A DNA stretch of 18,608 bases, from the NCBI GenBank assembly GCA_025352585.1, contig JANXTD010000411.1:1-18608 (forward strand). The letters are read 5' to 3'. Of the stretch, positions 7,100-15,234 are shown one piece after another. Both the position numbers and the translations under genes were made by a program. The notes below the pieces were generated by a model that searched no databases, was not told where the DNA came from, and was given only the letters and a program-made list of their open reading frames with translations. The DNA is from Fimbriiglobus sp. GTDB lineage: Bacteria; Planctomycetota; Planctomycetia; Gemmatales; Gemmataceae. Within the stretch, counting starts at the first letter, position 1; each line of letters starts with the position of its first letter.

Positions 7100-10039
7100 T
7101 CACCCCTCGCGTAACTCGCGCAGGTTCTCTTCGAGCGTCTCCGCCTGGCGCGTCAACTCGGCGACCTTCTCGCGCGACTCTTGCACGACCTCGGCCGGGG
7201 CGTTCTTGACGTAGCTCGCGTTGGCCAGCTTCGCTTGTAGGGCGGCGGCCTGCTTGCGGGCCTCGGCGATCTGCTTGTCGAGCCGCTTCGACTCGGTCGC
7301 CGGGTCGATCAGCCCTTGTAGCAAGACGCGGGCCTCGAAGTCGGCGTGGACGATCGAAGCCGACTGCTTCGGCTTCGTCGGCGACTCGGTCAGCGTGATG
7401 CCGCTGAGGTCGGCCATGCCGACGATGAAGGGCACCAGCTTCTCGAACGGCTTGGCGTGGGCCGCCGTCATGACGAGTTCGACCTTGGTCTTGTCGTCGA
7501 GTTGGTAGCGGTTGCGGACCTCCCGGATGGAGCGAATCAACTCCTGCATCCGGCCGATCTCGGCTTCGGTCTCGGGGGCCGTGAACGCCTCGGGGTAGCT
7601 CGGCCACTCGACCATGCAGACGTTCTCGAGCTGCGGCATCGGGGCCGCCAGCCCGCGGATCGGCGCGACCTCGTTGAGCGCCGTCCAGAGCGACTCGGTG
7701 ACGAACGGCATGATCGGGTGGGCCAGCCGCAAGATGCCGTCGAGTACGCCGACGAGGACGCGCTGGCCGACCGGGTCGCTGCGGCGCGACTTGGCCATTT
7801 CGAGGTACCAGTCGCAGAACTCGCTCCAGGTGAACTCGTAGATCAGCCGCGTCGCCTCCGCGAAGCGGTAGCCGTCGAGCGCGGCACTCACCGCGACAGT
7901 CGTGGTCGCCAGCCGCGAGACGATCCAGCGGTCTTCGACGGCGAGCGTGGCCGGGTCGATCGGCGCGGGGGTGTAGCCGTCGAGGTTCATCAGGATGAAG
8001 CGGGTCGCGTTCCACAGCTTGTTGGCGAAGTTGCGGCCGACCTCGAAGCGGTCCGACGCCTGCTTGGCGGTCGGCAACTCGGGGTCGTCCGCCGGCCACG
8101 GCCCGCCGGGGCGGAACGCTTTCTTGCATGCGGTGCAAACGAGCTTCTTAGTGCGCAAGTTCATGTGCTCGGCCTTGACCGGCACGAGGTTGCCGCAGTG
8201 CGGGCAGACGTTCGACACCGGCAGCCGCGAGTCTTGCGTCTCGCCAGCGATCGACGTGACGTAGTAGCGCAGCGCGTCGGTGCCGTACATGGCGATGATG
8301 TCGAGCGGCTCGACGCCGTTGCCCTTCGACTTCGACATGCGCTCGCCGAGGCCGTCGAGGATCGTCGGCGTGATGACCACGTCGCGGAACGGCACTTCGC
8401 CGAGATTGTACAGGCCCATGATGACCATGCGGGCCACCCAGAGCGTGATGATGTCGCGGCTCGTCACCAGGGTCGAAGTCGGGTAATACTTCGCGAGGTC
8501 GGCCGTCTGCTCCGGCCAACCGAGGGTCGAGTGCGGCCACAGCGCCGACGAGAACCAGGTGTCGAGTACGTCGTCGGACTGGACGAAGCCCTCGGCCTCC
8601 AAGTTGGTCGCGTCGCCGTCCTGTTCAAGGCAGACGTGAAGGACGTTGCCGACGAGGTCGGTCTGAACCGCGCGACCCGGTTCGCAGAAGCCGAGCCGCT
8701 TGCCGTGGACCAGTTCGTAGGCGGTGACTTCGGTCGCGCTGGCGAACTTCTTCGTCCAGACCGGGATGCGGTGGCCCCACCAGAGTTGCCGGCTGATGCA
8801 CCAGTCACGCTTCTCGCCGAGCCAGTCGAGGTACGTCTTCGCATAACGCTCAGGGAAGAAGCGCACGCGGCCGTCGGTCACCGCGTCCATCGCCGTCTGC
8901 GCGAGGCCGGGCTTTTCGGGCCGGTCGCCCATCGCCACGAACCACTGGTCGCTCAGGTACGGCTCGATCGGCGTCTTCGACCGGTCGGAGTACGGCAACG
9001 GGATGTCGCGGTCCTGCTTGTCGAGGAAGTAGCCGAGGGCTTCCATGTCGGCGACGACGAGTTCGCGCACTTTATAGCGGTCCAGCCCGGCGTATTTGTC
9101 GCCGCCGACGGCGTTGATGGTGCCGTCGGGGTTGAGGATGTTCAGGATGCCGATTTCGGGGTGCCGCTGCCAGCAAGCGTAGTCGTTGGGGTCGTGGGCC
9201 GGCGTCACCTTGACGCAGCCGGTGCCGAGCGTCGGGTCCGCGAGTAACGCATCAGTGATGATGGGGATTTCGCGGCCGGTGAGCGGCTGCAACGCCTTCT
9301 GGCCGTGGAGGGCCGTGTACCGCGCGTCGTCGGGGTGGACGCAGAGTGCCGTATCGCCGAGCATCGTTTCGGGCCGCGTGGTGCTGAACGAGATAAACGT
9401 GTCCGGCATCCCGACGACGGGGTACTTGAACGTCCAGAAGCCGCCCTTGACCGTCTCGGTGTACGTCTCGTCGTCGGCGACGCTGGTTTGCAGTTGCGTG
9501 TCCCAATTGACGAGCCGCTTCCCGCGGTAGATGTACCCGTCGCGGAACATCTTGAAGAAGGTTTCGCGCACCGCTTTCGTGCAGAGTTCGTCGAGGGTGA
9601 AGCGGGTGCGCGACCAGTCGAGCGACGCGCCGAGTACGCGCAACTGCCCGAGGATGCGCGTCTCGTACTTGGCCTTCCACTCCCAAATCTTGGCAACCAA
9701 CGCTTCGCGGCCGAGGTCGTAACGGGTCTTCTTCTCCTGGGCGAAGATCAGCTTCTCGACGACGGCTTGCGTGGCGATCCCGGCGTGGTCGGTCCCCGGC
9801 ACCCAGAGCGTGTTGAAGCCCTGCATCCGCTTGCGGCGAATCAGCACGTCTTGGAGCGTGTTGTTGAGCGCGTGCCCCATGTGCAGCGCGCCGGTGACGT
9901 TGGGCGGCGGGATGACGATGGTGTACGGCTCGCCGGGCTTGGCGGGGTCGGCGGTGAAGTAGCCGCGCGCCTCCCAGTGGGCCAGCCAGCGCTCCTGGGC
10001 GGCCTGGGCGTCGAAACTCATGGGCAACTCGGTCGGCAT
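7100..10039 (-). CDS. valS: Valyl-tRNA synthetase, with a zinc-ribbon-like insertion
   Basis: ValRS charges tRNA-Val with valine. The 979-residue protein has the class I signatures PPPNVTGALHMGH (HIGH motif, 53-56) and GERMSKSKGN (567-571, Arg in place of the first Lys). It has the CP1 editing domain with TTRPETMLGDTA (220-231), WWGHRIPVW (420-428), and the anticodon-domain start FANKLWNATRF (671-681). The C-terminus is the coiled-coil tRNA arm (about 905-975, rich in K, E, A and Q). Between the KMSKS loop and FANKLWNA lies an extra segment with two CxxC pairs (Cys612/615 and Cys635/638) that looks like a zinc ribbon. The start at 10039 has AAGGA about 9 bp upstream; an in-frame ATG at 10021 has a weaker site. 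It is the last gene of the minus-strand cimA group, 10 bp after a Uma2 gene. Confidence 0.96.
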   Translation of the reverse strand: MPTELPMSFDAQAAQERWLAHWEARGYFTADPAKPGEPYTIVIPPPNVTGALHMGHALNNTLQDVLIRRKRMQGFNTLWVPGTDHAGIATQAVVEKLIFAQEKKTRYDLGREALVAKIWEWKAKYETRILGQLRVLGASLDWSRTRFTLDELCTKAVRETFFKMFRDGYIYRGKRLVNWDTQLQTSVADDETYTETVKGGFWTFKYPVVGMPDTFISFSTTRPETMLGDTALCVHPDDARYTALHGQKALQPLTGREIPIITDALLADPTLGTGCVKVTPAHDPNDYACWQRHPEIGILNILNPDGTINAVGGDKYAGLDRYKVRELVVADMEALGYFLDKQDRDIPLPYSDRSKTPIEPYLSDQWFVAMGDRPEKPGLAQTAMDAVTDGRVRFFPERYAKTYLDWLGEKRDWCISRQLWWGHRIPVWTKKFASATEVTAYELVHGKRLGFCEPGRAVQTDLVGNVLHVCLEQDGDATNLEAEGFVQSDDVLDTWFSSALWPHSTLGWPEQTADLAKYYPTSTLVTSRDIITLWVARMVIMGLYNLGEVPFRDVVITPTILDGLGERMSKSKGNGVEPLDIIAMYGTDALRYYVTSIAGETQDSRLPVSNVCPHCGNLVPVKAEHMNLRTKKLVCTACKKAFRPGGPWPADDPELPTAKQASDRFEVGRNFANKLWNATRFILMNLDGYTPAPIDPATLAVEDRWIVSRLATTTVAVSAALDGYRFAEATRLIYEFTWSEFCDWYLEMAKSRRSDPVGQRVLVGVLDGILRLAHPIMPFVTESLWTALNEVAPIRGLAAPMPQLENVCMVEWPSYPEAFTAPETEAEIGRMQELIRSIREVRNRYQLDDKTKVELVMTAAHAKPFEKLVPFIVGMADLSGITLTESPTKPKQSASIVHADFEARVLLQGLIDPATESKRLDKQIAEARKQAAALQAKLANASYVKNAPAEVVQESREKVAELTRQAETLEENLRELREG

Positions 10040-10049
10040 GGGGAGTCCT

Positions 10050-10973
10050 TTACTTCGCGTCGTTCAGTCGGGCCTTGAGTGCCGCGAGTTCGCGGGCCAA
10101 GGCTTCGGCGCGCTCAGTCGCCTCGTCGGCGCGCTGCTTTTCGGCCCCGGCCTCTTGCGTCGCCTCGTCGGCGCGCAGTTTCTCGGCTTGAGCCACCACG
10201 ATCGCCTCGTCGGCGCGTTGTTTCTCGGCCCCGGCCACCTGGGTGGCCTCGTCGGCCCGCTGACTTTCCGCGTCGGCGCGGCGCGCGAGATCGACGCCCG
10301 TGAGGATGTCATGGCCGGCCTCCGTTGTCGCGATGAGTCGGTCGTCGGCCCAGCGAAGCCAAACGTTGACGCGGGGGAGGAAACACCCGAGCTGTGCGTC
10401 TCGCGGCAGCGGTTTGTAGTCTTCCACGCTGCGACGGAAAGCCAGAACCTTCTCCGCCCCCGCAGGGCCTGCGGCGTCCACGATCACGTAGTAGGGGATG
10501 CCGGCCTCGTGGTACTCGATGAACTTGGCCTCGAAGTCGGTCGCCCTCGTCGCTTCGGAGGTCACCTCGATGACAGCCATAACCCGCGCGCCCAAGTCTC
10601 GCACAGGGAGCGTCCCCCGGAGCGGGTCCCAATCGGCGTGAAAGTTGTCGAACACGACGACATCCGGGCCGTGAGGGGCGATTCCCGGCACCTGCCAATC
10701 GACGCGGTGGTCCGTGAAGACCCTGACTTCCGGCTCACTCTCGTGAAGAATCTCGATCGCTTCGCGGAGGTAGTTCACCGTCACGGTGTGCAGGTCGGTG
10801 AGCATCTCGCGGTCCTCTTCCTGGGGGTGCAGGAAGTCTTCTTCCGTGAGCGGGACCATCACCTGACGCGCGACGCCGTCCGGCCCGACACCGGGGACGT
10901 ACCGGTAGCCGATGCGGAACGGGTCGAGCGCCGCGGGCGGGTTCTGGGCGTCGTGGCGGGTGTCGATCGACAT
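10050..10973 (-). CDS. Uma2 family (DUF820) restriction-endonuclease-like protein with repeat tail
   Basis: The first 230 or so residues of this 307-residue protein have the PD-(D/E)XK core of the Uma2/DUF820 family. Asp104 is in GPDVVVFDN, Glu136 in VIEVTSEATRATDFEAK, Lys150 follows, and YHEAGIPYYVIVDAAG completes the core. The catalytic set looks intact, but the natural substrate of this family is unknown. The C-terminus (about 230-305) is an Ala/Glu/Arg-rich tail built of 14-residue units beginning RADEA, ending in a leucine-containing coiled coil. It is tightly placed, 13 bp after cimA and 10 bp before valS, so it should be on the same transcript. GGGGGCAG precedes the ATG. It is distinct in sequence from the shorter Uma2 protein at 12780-13343. 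Confidence 0.82.
   Translation of the reverse strand: MSIDTRHDAQNPPAALDPFRIGYRYVPGVGPDGVARQVMVPLTEEDFLHPQEEDREMLTDLHTVTVNYLREAIEILHESEPEVRVFTDHRVDWQVPGIAPHGPDVVVFDNFHADWDPLRGTLPVRDLGARVMAVIEVTSEATRATDFEAKFIEYHEAGIPYYVIVDAAGPAGAEKVLAFRRSVEDYKPLPRDAQLGCFLPRVNVWLRWADDRLIATTEAGHDILTGVDLARRADAESQRADEATQVAGAEKQRADEAIVVAQAEKLRADEATQEAGAEKQRADEATERAEALARELAALKARLNDAK
10092..10259 (-). repeat. 42-bp tandem repeats inside the Uma2 tail
   Basis: Four consecutive 42-nt units (boundaries near 10259, 10217, 10175 and 10133) encode 14-residue repeats: RADEATQVAGAEKQ, RADEAIVVAQAEKL, RADEATQEAGAEKQ, then a diverged RADEATERAEALAR. A unit of two heptads is consistent with a coiled-coil oligomerisation tail. 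Near-identical DNA makes copy number prone to slippage. Confidence 0.8.
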
Positions 10974-10986
10974 GGTCTGCCCCCGG

Positions 10987-12555
10987 TTACTGTGCGGCCT
11001 CGTCGGCGTCCTTGAACAGCTTGTACTCGATCGAGTCGGCCAACGCGAGCCACGAGGCCTCGACGACGTTTTCGCTCACACCCACCGTGCCCCAGATGGC
11101 GTCGCCGTCGCGGCTCTCGATCACGACCCGCACCCGCGCCGCCGTGCCGGCCTTCGAGTTCACGACGCGGACCTTGTAATCGACCAACTGCAACTCGTCG
11201 AGTCGCGGGAAGTGCGGCAGCAACGCCTTGCGCATCGCCGCGTCGAGGGCGTTCACCGGGCCGTCGCCCTCGCTCACGGTGTGTTCGACACCGCCCGCGA
11301 CGTTCAACTTCACCGTCGCCTCGGTGACCAGTCCGGCCGGCCCCTGCTCGATATTGACGCGGTACGCCAGCCGCTCAAACCACGGCGTGTACAGCCCCGC
11401 CGCCTGCTTGACGAGCAGGTCGAACGACGCCTCGGCCGCCTCGTACTCGTAGCCGGCGAACTCGCGGTCCTGCACCGTCGTGAGGATGCGCGTCATCAAC
11501 GCCTTGTCGTGGCCCACGGCGTACTTCGTTGTCTTGGCCAGGATCGTCGATTGCCCCGACAGTTCGCTCACCAGCAGCCGGCGTTCGTTGCCGACGAGCG
11601 TCGGCTCGATGTGCTCGTAACTCGTCGGGTTCTTGGCGACGGCGTGGGTGTGCATGCCGCCCTTGTGGGCGAACGCACTCGCCCCGACGAACGGCTGGCC
11701 GTTGCGGAAGTTCATGTTCGCCAGCTCGTAGACGTAGCGCGACGCCTCGGTGAGCCGGCCCAGGCTGCCGGGGACGAGCACGTCGTGGCCGTACTTCACC
11801 GCGAGGTTGGCGACGACGCTGACCAGATCGACGTTGCCGCAGCGCTCGCCGATGCCGTTCATCGTGCCCTGCACCTGCGTCGCCCCGGCCCGCACCGCGG
11901 CGAGCGTGTTGGCCACGGCCAGGTCGCAGTCGTTGTGGCAGTGGATGCCGACCTCGCACGGCACCAGTTCGCGCACCTGCCGCACGGCGTCGGCGACGAA
12001 CTCGGGCATCGTGCCGCCGTTGGTGTCGCAGAGGATCACGGCACTCGCGCCAGCCTCGGCCGCGACCCGCAAAGTGCGCAAGGCGTAGCCGCGGTTGGCC
12101 TTGAGGCCGTCGAAGAAGTGTTCGGCGTCGTAGAACACCGTGCGGCCCTGCTCGACGCAGTGGCGCACCGAGTCGGCGATCATGGCGACGTTCTCGTCGA
12201 GCGACGCATTGAGCACCTCGGTGACGTGGAAGTCCCAGGTCTTGCCGACGATGGTGACGTGCGTCGTGCCGGAGTCGAGCAGCGCGTTCAGACCGATGTC
12301 GTTCTCGGGCGGCGAGTTCTTGCGCCGGGTCATGCCGAAGGCGACGACCTTGGCGTGGCACAGCTTCAGGTTGCGGACGGCCTGGAAGTACTCGAAGTCC
12401 TTGGGGTTCGAGAGCGGGTAGCCGCCCTCGATGAAATCGACCCCGAGTTCGTCGAGCCGCTTCGTGAGGAGCAATTTGTCTTGCAGGGAGAAGTTGACGC
12501 CTTCGCCCTGGCTGCCGTCGCGAAGGGTCGTGTCGTAGATGGACGTGCGAGTCAC
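10987..12555 (-). CDS. cimA: (R)-citramalate synthase
   Basis: CimA condenses pyruvate with acetyl-CoA to citramalate, the first step of the threonine-independent route to isoleucine. The 522-residue protein has a DRE-TIM barrel: [15 protein letters not shown] (9-23, with Arg12 and Asp13), [14 protein letters not shown] (141-154), LCDTNGGT (175-182), the metal-binding HCHND (206-210) and [12 protein letters not shown] (230-241). A LeuA-type C-terminal regulatory domain begins at roughly residue 390. The DAEHFFDG and LCDTNGG wording favours CimA over 2-isopropylmalate synthase or homocitrate synthase. The GTG at 12555 is chosen because [15 protein letters not shown] follows at once and GGA lies 8 bp upstream. 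The frame is open to 12813, but that part overlaps the promoter, leader ORF and hairpin and has no homology-like character. Isoleucine feedback through the C-terminal domain is expected from the family. Confidence 0.92.
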
Positions 12556-12592
12556 GGGGAGTTCCGGGGTGGGGTGAGGGTGGGAAACGAAG

Positions 12593-12622
12593 CAAGCCCT
12601 GAAGCGCAGGCTCCAGGGCTTG
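12593..12622 (-). terminator. Attenuator-type hairpin in the cimA leader
   Basis: On the minus strand, CAAGCCCTG (12622-12614) and CAGGGCTTG (12601-12593) pair perfectly. An inner GAGC/GCTT (one G-U) extends the stem to 13 bp with a CTGC tetraloop. The following CTTCGTTTCC is only a weak U-tract, so termination efficiency is uncertain. The 5' arm contains CCCTGGA (12618-12612), which can alternatively pair with TCCAGGG at the end of the leader ORF. The palindrome could also be a dispersed intergenic repeat. Confidence 0.55.
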
Positions 12623-12653
12623 GGCGTCCGGCCGATCGCTCGACCCCCTGCCG

Positions 12654-12728
12654 CTACCCTGGACGAACCCCGGCCGCACGCACTCCCTGCGCGGCGAGAA
12701 TCACGACTTGGGCGGCGGCGACAGTCAC
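12654..12728 (-). CDS. Putative branched-chain amino acid leader peptide of cimA
   Basis: This is a 24-codon ORF starting with GTG at 12728, with a strong GAGAGG ribosome site exactly 7 nt upstream. Residues 8-11 are Val-Val-Ile-Leu, and Val also occurs at 3, 16 and 21, so 7 of 24 residues are branched-chain. The Ile codon is ATT and the last Val codon is GTT, both uncommon in this GC-rich DNA. The final codons contain TCCAGGG (12663-12657), which can pair with the 5' arm of the downstream hairpin. By analogy with known ilv and leu attenuators, stalling at the Val/Ile/Leu run would leave this segment free to form an antiterminator. A ribosome reaching the TAG would mask it. Function is inferred; chance short ORFs are common in such DNA. 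Confidence 0.55.
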   Translation of the reverse strand: MTVAAAQVVILAAQGVRAAGVRPG

Positions 12729-12754
12729 GGCGAAACCTCTCGGTAGGTGCAATC

Positions 12755-12783
12755 AATGTACGGCGGCCCGCTGCGCGCGTCAA
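12755..12783 (-). promoter_or_regulatory. Predicted sigma-70 type promoter of the cimA-Uma2-valS group
   Basis: On the minus strand, TTGACG (12783-12778) and TACATT (12760-12755) are separated by exactly 17 bp. The -35 overlaps the TGA of the upstream Uma2 gene. The predicted transcript start is the A near 12748, about 20 nt before the leader ORF start and 13 nt before transcription passes its ribosome site. Confidence 0.6.
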
Positions 12784-13343
12784 GCGAACAGCGCGTCGAG
12801 GGCGAGCGTCCACCCCGGCACCGCCGGCTCCGAGTCGGCGACACTCCCGGCGGCAAAGACGACCGGCGTGAGCGGGTCGGCCGCCGCGTACTTCGTCACG
12901 GTCTTCGCCCGCGGATCGACATCCCAGACTACGAGGGTGCCGGCGTAAAAGTAGTCCTTCCGCTTCGCCTCATACTCGGCGTCCCCGGCGGAACTGAGTT
13001 CTTCCGAAGTACGAATTTCCACCGCGAAGGTTGGCGGACCGGGGACAGGCCCCAACAAAGTCTTCGACAAGTTGAACGCGTAGTACGACGCGTCTGGCGA
13101 GAACGACTGACGCCCCGATTCGAGCGGCTCATCAAGGGCATAGGCCAGCAAGCCGGTGAAGGTCTCGCCGACGCCTAGAACCTCGATGTGCCGATCAAGG
13201 CTCATCACAATCCTCGACGCCAGACGCGCGTGCCAGTACCCATTCGGCGGCTGCGTCACGACGTAGCCGTTGACGAGCTCGGCCTTGTCTTTGGTGCTCA
13301 TCAAGTCGGCGATCGTTGCCGTGCCGCGGACTGCTTTCGGCAT
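12780..13343 (-). CDS. Uma2 family (DUF820) restriction-endonuclease-like protein, short form
   Basis: The 187-residue protein has the typical Uma2 outline: ELVNGYVVTQPPNGYWHARLASRI at the N-terminus (22-45), then SFSPDASY (Asp84), FAVEIRTSEE (Glu109), and YEAKRKDYFYAGTLVVWDVDP (Lys127). The PD-(D/E)XK residues appear intact. Family members are very numerous in planctomycetes and cyanobacteria and their biological role is unsettled. AAGGAG lies 7 bp before the ATG at 13343. The gene begins 39 bp after the isomerase-like gene, so the two may be co-transcribed. Its stop codon is embedded in the -35 of the cimA promoter. Confidence 0.85.
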   Translation of the reverse strand: MPKAVRGTATIADLMSTKDKAELVNGYVVTQPPNGYWHARLASRIVMSLDRHIEVLGVGETFTGLLAYALDEPLESGRQSFSPDASYYAFNLSKTLLGPVPGPPTFAVEIRTSEELSSAGDAEYEAKRKDYFYAGTLVVWDVDPRAKTVTKYAAADPLTPVVFAAGSVADSEPAVPGWTLALDALFA

Positions 13344-14252: not shown

Positions 14253-14451
14253 GACTGCGACTCCGGAGGGGTGAGGAGTCGCCATCATGCCCGCAAGCCC
14301 GCTGCAATGCGAGCGCCGAACGCGCGGCGGCCCGCGAATCCCGGCCGGCGCGACGCTCGCCCCGCGAATCGGTCGTGGCGGTCGAAGGTCACTCCCGTAA
14401 GATCCGAGGGTATCGGGTTTCGCACCGAGTTGAACGATGAGACTCCACGAC

Positions 14452-15234
14452 ATGCCCACGATCCTGGACGAAATCGTCGCCGCCAAGTGGCTCGAACTTG
14501 CCGCGGCGAAGGAACGCACGCCGGTGGCGGTGCTCGAATCGCGCATCGACTTCGGCGCGGCCCGGCGGGGGTTCGGGGCGGCCCTGCGGCGGCCGGGCGA
14601 GGTCGCCGTCATCGCCGAGGTCAAGAAGGCGTCGCCGTCGGCGGGGGTGCTCCGCGCCGACTTCGACCCCGTCGCCGTCGCGCTCGCCTACGAGGCCCAC
14701 GGCGCGGCCTGCCTCAGCGTCCTGACCGACGAGGGGTTCTTCCAGGGCCACCTCGACTACCTGCGGGCCGTCCGCGCCGCCGTCGCCATCCCGGTGCTGC
14801 GCAAGGAGTTCATCCTGGAGCGGTACCAGCTCGTCGAGGCGCGCGAGGCGGGGGCCGACGCCGTGCTGCTCATCGCCGAGATTCTACCCGGACACCGGCT
14901 CAAGGAGTTGCACGCCGAGGCGGTCGAGTTGGGGCTGGAAGTCCTCGTCGAACTGCACGACCCGCCGGAGCTGTCGCGCGTCCTCGACTGCGGGGCCAAG
15001 ATCGTCGGGATCAACAACCGCGACCTGCGGACCTTCGTGACCGGCCTCGACCGCACGCTCGAACTCTTGCCGCGCGTCCCGGCCGGCGTCACGCTCGTCA
15101 GCGAGAGCGGCATCCGCACCCACGCCGACTTGCTGATGCTGCGAAGTCACGGCGTCCACGCGGTCCTCGTTGGCGAGGCGCTCATGCGAGCCCCGGACAT
15201 CGGCCTCGCGCTCGACGCCCTACGCGGCCGGTAG
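14452..15234 (+). CDS. trpC: Indole-3-glycerol phosphate synthase
   Basis: IGPS closes the indole ring in tryptophan synthesis, converting CdRP to indole-3-glycerol phosphate. The 260-residue barrel shows the catalytic sites IAEVKKASPSAG (Glu56 and Lys58), LRKEFI (Lys118), LVELHD (Glu167), GINNRDLRTF (Asn188) and LVSESGI (Glu218). The ATG at 14452 is preferred because MPTILDEIVAAK aligns with the family N-terminus; an in-frame ATG at 14437 would add five residues, and neither has a strong ribosome site. No other trp gene is visible nearby, so trpC stands alone here. It is divergent from the isomerase-like gene and its last 15 bp overlap the 3' end of the convergent glycosyltransferase gene. 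Confidence 0.95.
   Translation: MPTILDEIVAAKWLELAAAKERTPVAVLESRIDFGAARRGFGAALRRPGEVAVIAEVKKASPSAGVLRADFDPVAVALAYEAHGAACLSVLTDEGFFQGHLDYLRAVRAAVAIPVLRKEFILERYQLVEAREAGADAVLLIAEILPGHRLKELHAEAVELGLEVLVELHDPPELSRVLDCGAKIVGINNRDLRTFVTGLDRTLELLPRVPAGVTLVSESGIRTHADLLMLRSHGVHAVLVGEALMRAPDIGLALDALRGR

Follow-up and report, generated by a model that had tools for sequence, protein, structure and literature searches.

A candidate leader-peptide attenuator for isoleucine and valine upstream of the citramalate synthase gene cimA in Gemmataceae

In the classical attenuators of the enterobacterial ilv, leu, and trp operons, a leader ORF with control codons ends at a stop codon near region 2 of the transcript, the 2:3 and 3:4 pairings are mutually exclusive, and a 1:2 hairpin serves as pause or protector hairpin. 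A uORF attenuator before ilvBNC in Corynebacterium, the ilvB-II motif, is treated in sections of PMC10272879. The openly licensed literature yielded no report of an amino acid attenuator for cimA or for planctomycetes. Here, the leader of cimA was analyzed in an 18,608-nucleotide stretch of DNA (the window) and in related genomes, following a first-pass annotation of the same stretch. We consider it likely from the comparison of sequences that the leader forms a ribosome-mediated transcription attenuator, which would sense charged tRNA-Ile and tRNA-Val and set transcription of cimA and probably of valS.

Table 1. Features of the cimA region, in window coordinates
Feature	Position	Strand	Remarks
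valS, valine--tRNA ligase	7100..10039	-	TIGR00422 and NF004349, both over cut-off
Uma2-domain gene separating cimA from valS	10050..10973	-	PF05685
cimA, citramalate synthase	10987..12555	-	TIGR00977, 662 bits versus cut-off 450
Candidate terminator hairpin (3:4), 13-bp stem	12593..12622	-	-23.1 kcal/mol
Region 3, terminator 5' arm, CAAGCCCTGGAGC	12610..12622	-	
Leader ORF GTG..TAG, 24 codons plus TAG, VTVAAAQVVILAAQGVRAAGVRPG	12654..12728	-	Conserved in relatives
Region 2, TCCAGGGT, at leader stop	12656..12663	-	8 bp with region 3
In-ORF hairpin word GCGCAGGGAGTGCGT, codes AQGVR	12678..12692	-	
Val-Val-Ile-Leu, codons 8-11, candidate control codons	12696..12707	-	
GAGAGG, possible ribosome-binding site of leader ORF	12736..12741	-	
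-10 hexamer TACATT, 17 nt from -35	12755..12760	-	
-35 hexamer TTGACG	12778..12783	-	Overlaps stop codon of upstream Uma2-domain gene
Second Uma2-domain gene, upstream of cimA	12780-13343	Same as cimA	PF05685
Indole-3-glycerol phosphate synthase gene	14437-15234	+	PF00218

The cimA leader of the window

The elements on which the first-pass annotation had built its proposal (the promoter, GAGAGG, the 24-codon ORF with its Val-Val-Ile-Leu codons, TCCAGGG, and a 13-bp hairpin containing CCCTGGA) were all present in the sequence (Table 1), and its statement that the downstream gene makes citramalate agreed with the TIGR00977 assignment. TCCAGGG (12663-12657, minus strand) lies within the last codons of the leader ORF, CCCTGGA (12618-12612, minus strand) is part of the terminator 5' arm, and the stem stands 37 nt ahead of the cimA GTG. 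TTGACG-N17-TACATT was the only sigma-70-like site on both strands between 9900 and 13000, with 0.2 expected, and would place the transcription start ~20 nt ahead of the leader GTG. In the window, cimA is flanked on both sides by Uma2-domain genes. A cimA-valS spacing of ~0.9-1.0 kb was also observed in genomes G006, G014, G019, G022, G026, G036, and G075.

The hairpin had been suspected of being a dispersed palindrome. AGCCCTG-N3..25-CAGGGCT was found at one place in the 4.82-Mb source assembly (87% complete), as was the backwards control pattern; by count, therefore, the bare presence of the hairpin is not shown to be above chance, and the case rests on relatives. The suspicion was dropped, since the assembly contains no further exact copy (a diverged one would have escaped the search). 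Within the window, no Rfam family reached its gathering score. For related loci, given in sets of 11 and 20, Rfam returned only three matches at E≤1, to unrelated families and all below gathering score: two micro-RNA families in one locus (L005) and a cyanobacterial sRNA in another (L186). The micro-RNA matches, located between cimA and valS, scored 44 bits versus a gathering score of 124 and 30 versus 90 and were taken as chance. The covariance models of ilvB-OMG and other Rfam leader families gave no match at gathering score in the leaders tested.

The window's copy is a weak representative of the family. The poor U-tract stated by the first-pass annotation was confirmed (tail CTTCGTTTC), and the copy has RAAGVRPG where the same-genus genome G006 has RTVVVVSTG, a reduced Val run. 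Pairing of TCCAGGGT with region 3 gave -15.7 kcal/mol versus a mean of -12.3 for shuffled spacers, which, at p=0.07, is not beyond chance for this copy alone. In a modelled nascent RNA, upstream pairing of region 3 was 0.44 with a stalled ribosome and 0.29 with the ribosome at the stop. A copy that is decaying, no longer regulates, or acts via Rho or translation, with working attenuators only in relatives, would account for the poor tail, the reduced Val run, and the pairing value. We regard this reading as unlikely: the copy passes the strict rule given below (six V/I/L in the last 20 codons, with a run of four), and promoter, in-ORF word, frame, and the -23 kcal/mol stem are all kept. Moreover, five elements of genus g37 likewise pair strong stems with short tails, and stem strength rose as the T count fell across 74 elements (Spearman 0.33, p=0.004), so that a strong stem with a short tail may be the form of a clade. 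Because the copy is weak, confidence in its own activity is lower than for the family; we judge it fairly probable that the attenuator in the window is active.

Distribution of the element and gene order

At E≤0.001, which admits distant paralogues, 92 of 95 Gemmataceae genomes had a CimA match; the figures were 145 of 158 for genomes sampled from the class (E≤1e-150) and 36 of 119 for genomes sampled from the phylum (E≤1e-140), 30 of these lying outside the class. Many of the genomes compared are incomplete; the named isolate Limnoglobus roseus PX52 is among them. Upstream DNA was read for 82 Gemmataceae loci with close CimA homologues, for 40 loci belonging to further families of the class, the sister family within the order contributing three, and, of the 30 loci outside the class, for 20, reduced to 19 by removal of L194, in which no start motif was recognizable. 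L031, which is the window's own place, and L084, with ten bases only, were also left out.

One rule was applied throughout. It called for a hairpin at or below -14 kcal/mol followed by four or more T within 8 bases, an ORF 12-50 codons long with its stop 15-60 nt ahead of the hairpin, and, in the last 20 codons, at least six V/I/L or at least five with a run of three; the strict rule additionally required a V/I/L run in all cases. This comparison is the fair version of an earlier one of leader frames, which was biased in that the richest ORF had been picked. Locus L106 entered from the one-rule comparison on. Two loci positive under a previous, looser rule (L083 and L099) look like false positives and were negative under the later rule, as were L012, L053, L058, L082, L085, and others.

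The element precedes cimA at 52 of the 82 Gemmataceae loci, at 19 of the 40 in other families of the class, and at 3 of the 19 in other classes (42, 17, and 3 by the strict rule), compared with 1 of 101 control genes (none by the strict rule); since the relatives share ancestry, these counts, and the p-values given throughout, are not those of independent samples. Upstream of Gemmataceae ilvB, the same rule gave 0 of 21 loci, with one at a contig edge (L155) left out of the 22 over the family cut-off. When leaders were shuffled and the terminator was kept, three replicates gave 5, 0, and 1 hits for the 82 loci and 3, 2, and 6 for the 40. By the rule, the element was absent in 30 of the 82 Gemmataceae loci and 21 of the 40 from other families. 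Candidate terminators, irrespective of the ORF, preceded cimA in 60 of 82 and 29 of 40 loci, respectively, versus 19 of the 101 control genes. A promoter pattern TTGAC-spacer-TANNNT stood upstream of 54 of the 74 elements, versus 0.2 in shuffles. Among Gemmataceae genera, 21 of 32 had at least one element and 11 had none. Three of the latter (g3, g4, and g7) were positive under the looser rule, and in several (g25, g26, g30, g35, and g36) a longer ORF occupies the place of the leader.

Outside the class Planctomycetia, Ile-run leaders were observed before cimA in L185, L186 (for example MNIQNIIISIIINIGGD), L187, and L191, three of them by the rule and L187 by eye only and not counted. The element may therefore be older than the class.

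Some single loci deserve mention. Genome G061 carries two cimA copies (L062 and L078; 69% and 62% identity to the window's), each with its own leader and terminator. In L042 (genome G040), an open frame with a very Ile-rich end part stops 36 nt before the terminator upstream of cimA. This frame could be a long leader or else encode a small membrane protein; the locus was counted as negative and was part of the pairing set. Three records titled Bacteroidales, Isosphaera sp., and "Bacterium" (L141, L144, and L134) contain Gemmataceae-like cimA loci with 78-80% identity to the window's CimA.

The first-pass annotation had placed valS under the same control, which agrees with the gene order in most loci with downstream sequence: among 66 element-bearing loci, 57 have valS behind cimA (42 of 50 in Gemmataceae, 15 of 16 in others), where valS was counted if it began within the downstream stretch, some stretches being truncated at contig ends or otherwise short. 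The same order is seen in 17 of 24 element-free loci and is thus independent of the element. Judging from the short gaps and the shared strand, cimA and valS are probably on one transcript. The Val share of the leader was not significantly related to adjacency of valS (0.54 with valS, n=57; 0.42 without, n=9; p=0.16), nor within Gemmataceae only (p=0.06).

Leader codons, in-ORF hairpin, and alternative pairing

Relative to shuffled sequences, the Gemmataceae leaders (n=52, up to the last 18 codons) contained 2.6-fold Val, 3.1-fold Ile, 2.3-fold Thr, and 0.33-fold Leu. The 19 leaders from other families of the class showed 2.8-fold Ile, 2.1-fold Val, and 0.36-fold Leu, and the 3 leaders from other classes 2.7-fold Ile with Val absent. 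The Val and Ile enrichments are inflated, since leaders were picked for their V/I/L content. The choice treats Leu like Val and Ile, and the Leu contrast is therefore not its product and is the sounder part of the result. With Leu codons depleted to about one-third, leucine is unlikely to be a control residue, and the leaders point to Ile and Val as the signals. Of the Val, Ile, and Leu codons named by the first-pass annotation, Val and Ile were thus retained as likely control codons and Leu was not.

A 14-base word, GCGCAGGGAGTGCG, occurs in the leader ORF, where it codes for AQGVR. It was identical in 31 of 31 AQGVR codings of the loci read, even though its glycine codon, GGA, accounts for 5% of the Gly codons when the cimA genes of 30 loci are counted. 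The word can fold as GCGCA-GGGAG-TGCGC, with a 5-bp stem and a GGGAG loop. In three loci from two genera (L019, L045, and L049), the sequence is GCGCG-GGGAG-CGCGC, in which stem and loop are preserved and two amino acids differ, giving ARGAR; another three (L027, L029, and L036) have a variant with only four of the five stem pairs. Counting close variants of the word, the local in-ORF hairpin was present in 38 loci. In all 38, the first stop in the frame of the word fell 20-60 nt ahead of the terminator, compared with only 6 and 8 in the other two frames, and the distance from word to stop ranged from 30 to 57 nt, varying in threes.

The exact word was found in 33 of 95 family genomes, at 34 sites versus 10 for the backwards control. 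Just ahead of cimA stand 29 of the 34, and L200 runs into cimA at a contig edge. The word was rejected as a mark of other genes, only L199, L201, L202, and L203 being without cimA context. In the genome collection, the exact word gave 24 hits, 18 of them 96-178 nt before cimA and one (L145) at a contig edge; the hits without cimA (L125, L132, L133, L137, and L147) are all in records titled as other phyla. Within the largest genus, g6, which we take to be Gemmata, 5 of 18 loci had the exact word, and the 37 class loci examined beyond the order all lacked it.

Conservation of the word beyond coding need speaks for a nucleic acid function. It also favors an alternative in which the leader works mainly via the in-ORF hairpin or via nascent-peptide arrest, not via stalling under Val/Ile starvation. 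The ARGAR variants, with an altered peptide on an intact stem and loop, argue against peptide arrest, and the loci that lack the word, to which 13 of the 18 in genus g6 (for the exact word) and all 37 outside the order belong, include many with Val/Ile runs and terminators. We therefore consider the alternative highly improbable.

Stalling at Val/Ile codons would act through region 2, which in the family lies at the leader stop or just past it, and its partner, region 3, the terminator 5' arm. Over 83 loci, the 2:3 pairing energy averaged -15.1 kcal/mol versus -11.1 for shuffled spacers; taken singly, 37 of the 83 reached p≤0.05 and 15 reached 0.01. With row and column means removed, own 2:3 pairs were 2.78 kcal/mol better than exchanged partners (permutation p=0.0005), the residual being negative in 60 of 74. 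By simple rank, only 20 of 74 own pairs were in the best 10% of exchanges. GAAG arms occur with CTTC (L014, L027), for example, and GGAG arms with CTCC (L018, L035). The putative antiterminator and terminator arms co-vary, and formation of the former would exclude the latter. In the model of a nascent RNA ending before region 4, with assumed ribosome footprint sizes, upstream pairing of region 3 was 0.70 with the ribosome in the Val/Ile run versus 0.30 at the stop, and the drop exceeded 0.2 in 54 of 74 elements. For the classical 1:2 pairing, the same exchange test gave a mean residual of -0.43 (p=0.13; negative in 40 of 74), and this pairing was not supported.

The short ORF with Val/Ile runs and the co-varying alternative stems that the first-pass annotation had expected across Gemmataceae are accordingly conserved there and in other Planctomycetia. 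Its analogy to ilv/leu attenuation is supported for codon content, terminator, and antiterminator and not for the 1:2 hairpin; the mutually exclusive 2:3 pairing that it had described is borne out by co-variation in the family and not by the window's copy alone. At the level of the family, an attenuator is very likely on these grounds.

Proposed mechanism and comparison with known systems

The comparison supports leader ORF, residue bias, terminator, co-varying 2:3 pairing, promoter, and gene order; from these we infer stalling, termination, read-through, and joint transcription of valS. When isoleucine or valine is short, the ribosome would stall on the Val/Ile codons of the leader, region 2 would pair with region 3, and RNA polymerase would continue into cimA. 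With both amino acids ample, the ribosome at the stop codon would cover region 2, and 3:4 pairing would form the terminator. That the hairpin instead serves to end transcription from the upstream gene, or terminates constitutively, with an incidental short ORF, is most improbable: the window's Uma2-domain gene does lie on the same strand and end 157 nt before the hairpin, and terminators do precede control genes, but a promoter conserved in relatives stands between that gene and the hairpin, and conservation along with cimA extends to the Val/Ile ORF, its frame, and the co-varying 2:3 pairing, such an ORF occurring before 1 of 101 controls. As a tentative and rather doubtful extension of the attenuator model, Ile/Val attenuation might reach across the phylum, with the in-ORF hairpin (GCGCA/TGCGC, loop GGGAG) replacing the 1:2 hairpin in the order of Gemmata and timing the polymerase relative to the ribosome.

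According to Gottshall 2014, as cited in PMC6212462 and PMC6554331, transcription is kept apart from translation in Gemmata obscuriglobus. For a leader-peptide attenuator to work in Gemmataceae, the two processes would have to be coupled, at least at the cimA operon. Because such attenuation depends on a ribosome that closely follows RNA polymerase, conservation of the mechanism across Gemmataceae, if true, would be genetic evidence for coupling in bacteria with a claimed spatial separation of the two processes and would bear on an old dispute. If real, the attenuator would also provide a testable logic for how Planctomycetota control isoleucine synthesis from pyruvate, with a link to a tRNA-synthetase gene.

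Like the enterobacterial ilv, leu, and trp attenuators, the cimA leader has control codons, a stop near region 2, and exclusive 2:3 and 3:4 pairings; it differs from them in that a 1:2 hairpin is not supported, Leu codons are avoided, and the target is cimA-valS. The ilvB-OMG and Leptospira ilvB motifs, in the sections of PMC10272879 that cover them, are predicted attenuators with uORFs rich in branched-chain codons and threonine, and threonine was enriched in the Gemmataceae leaders too. Those motifs precede ilvB, and the cimA leaders tested had no Rfam match. The Corynebacterium ilvB-II motif, as covered in the same source, shares the branched-chain-rich uORF, the terminator, and an alternative antiterminator before an amino acid operon. 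However, it belongs to another phylum, stands before ilvB, and has a consensus of two stems, P1 and P2, and an in-ORF hairpin like the GGGAG hairpin of the cimA leader is not mentioned for it in those sections of PMC10272879. Finally, as in the Streptomyces leuS and trpS attenuators, for which leader-peptide control is predicted in the relevant part of PMC1262725, an aminoacyl-tRNA synthetase gene lies downstream of the leader; here, unlike in Streptomyces, the synthetase gene stands behind a biosynthetic gene.
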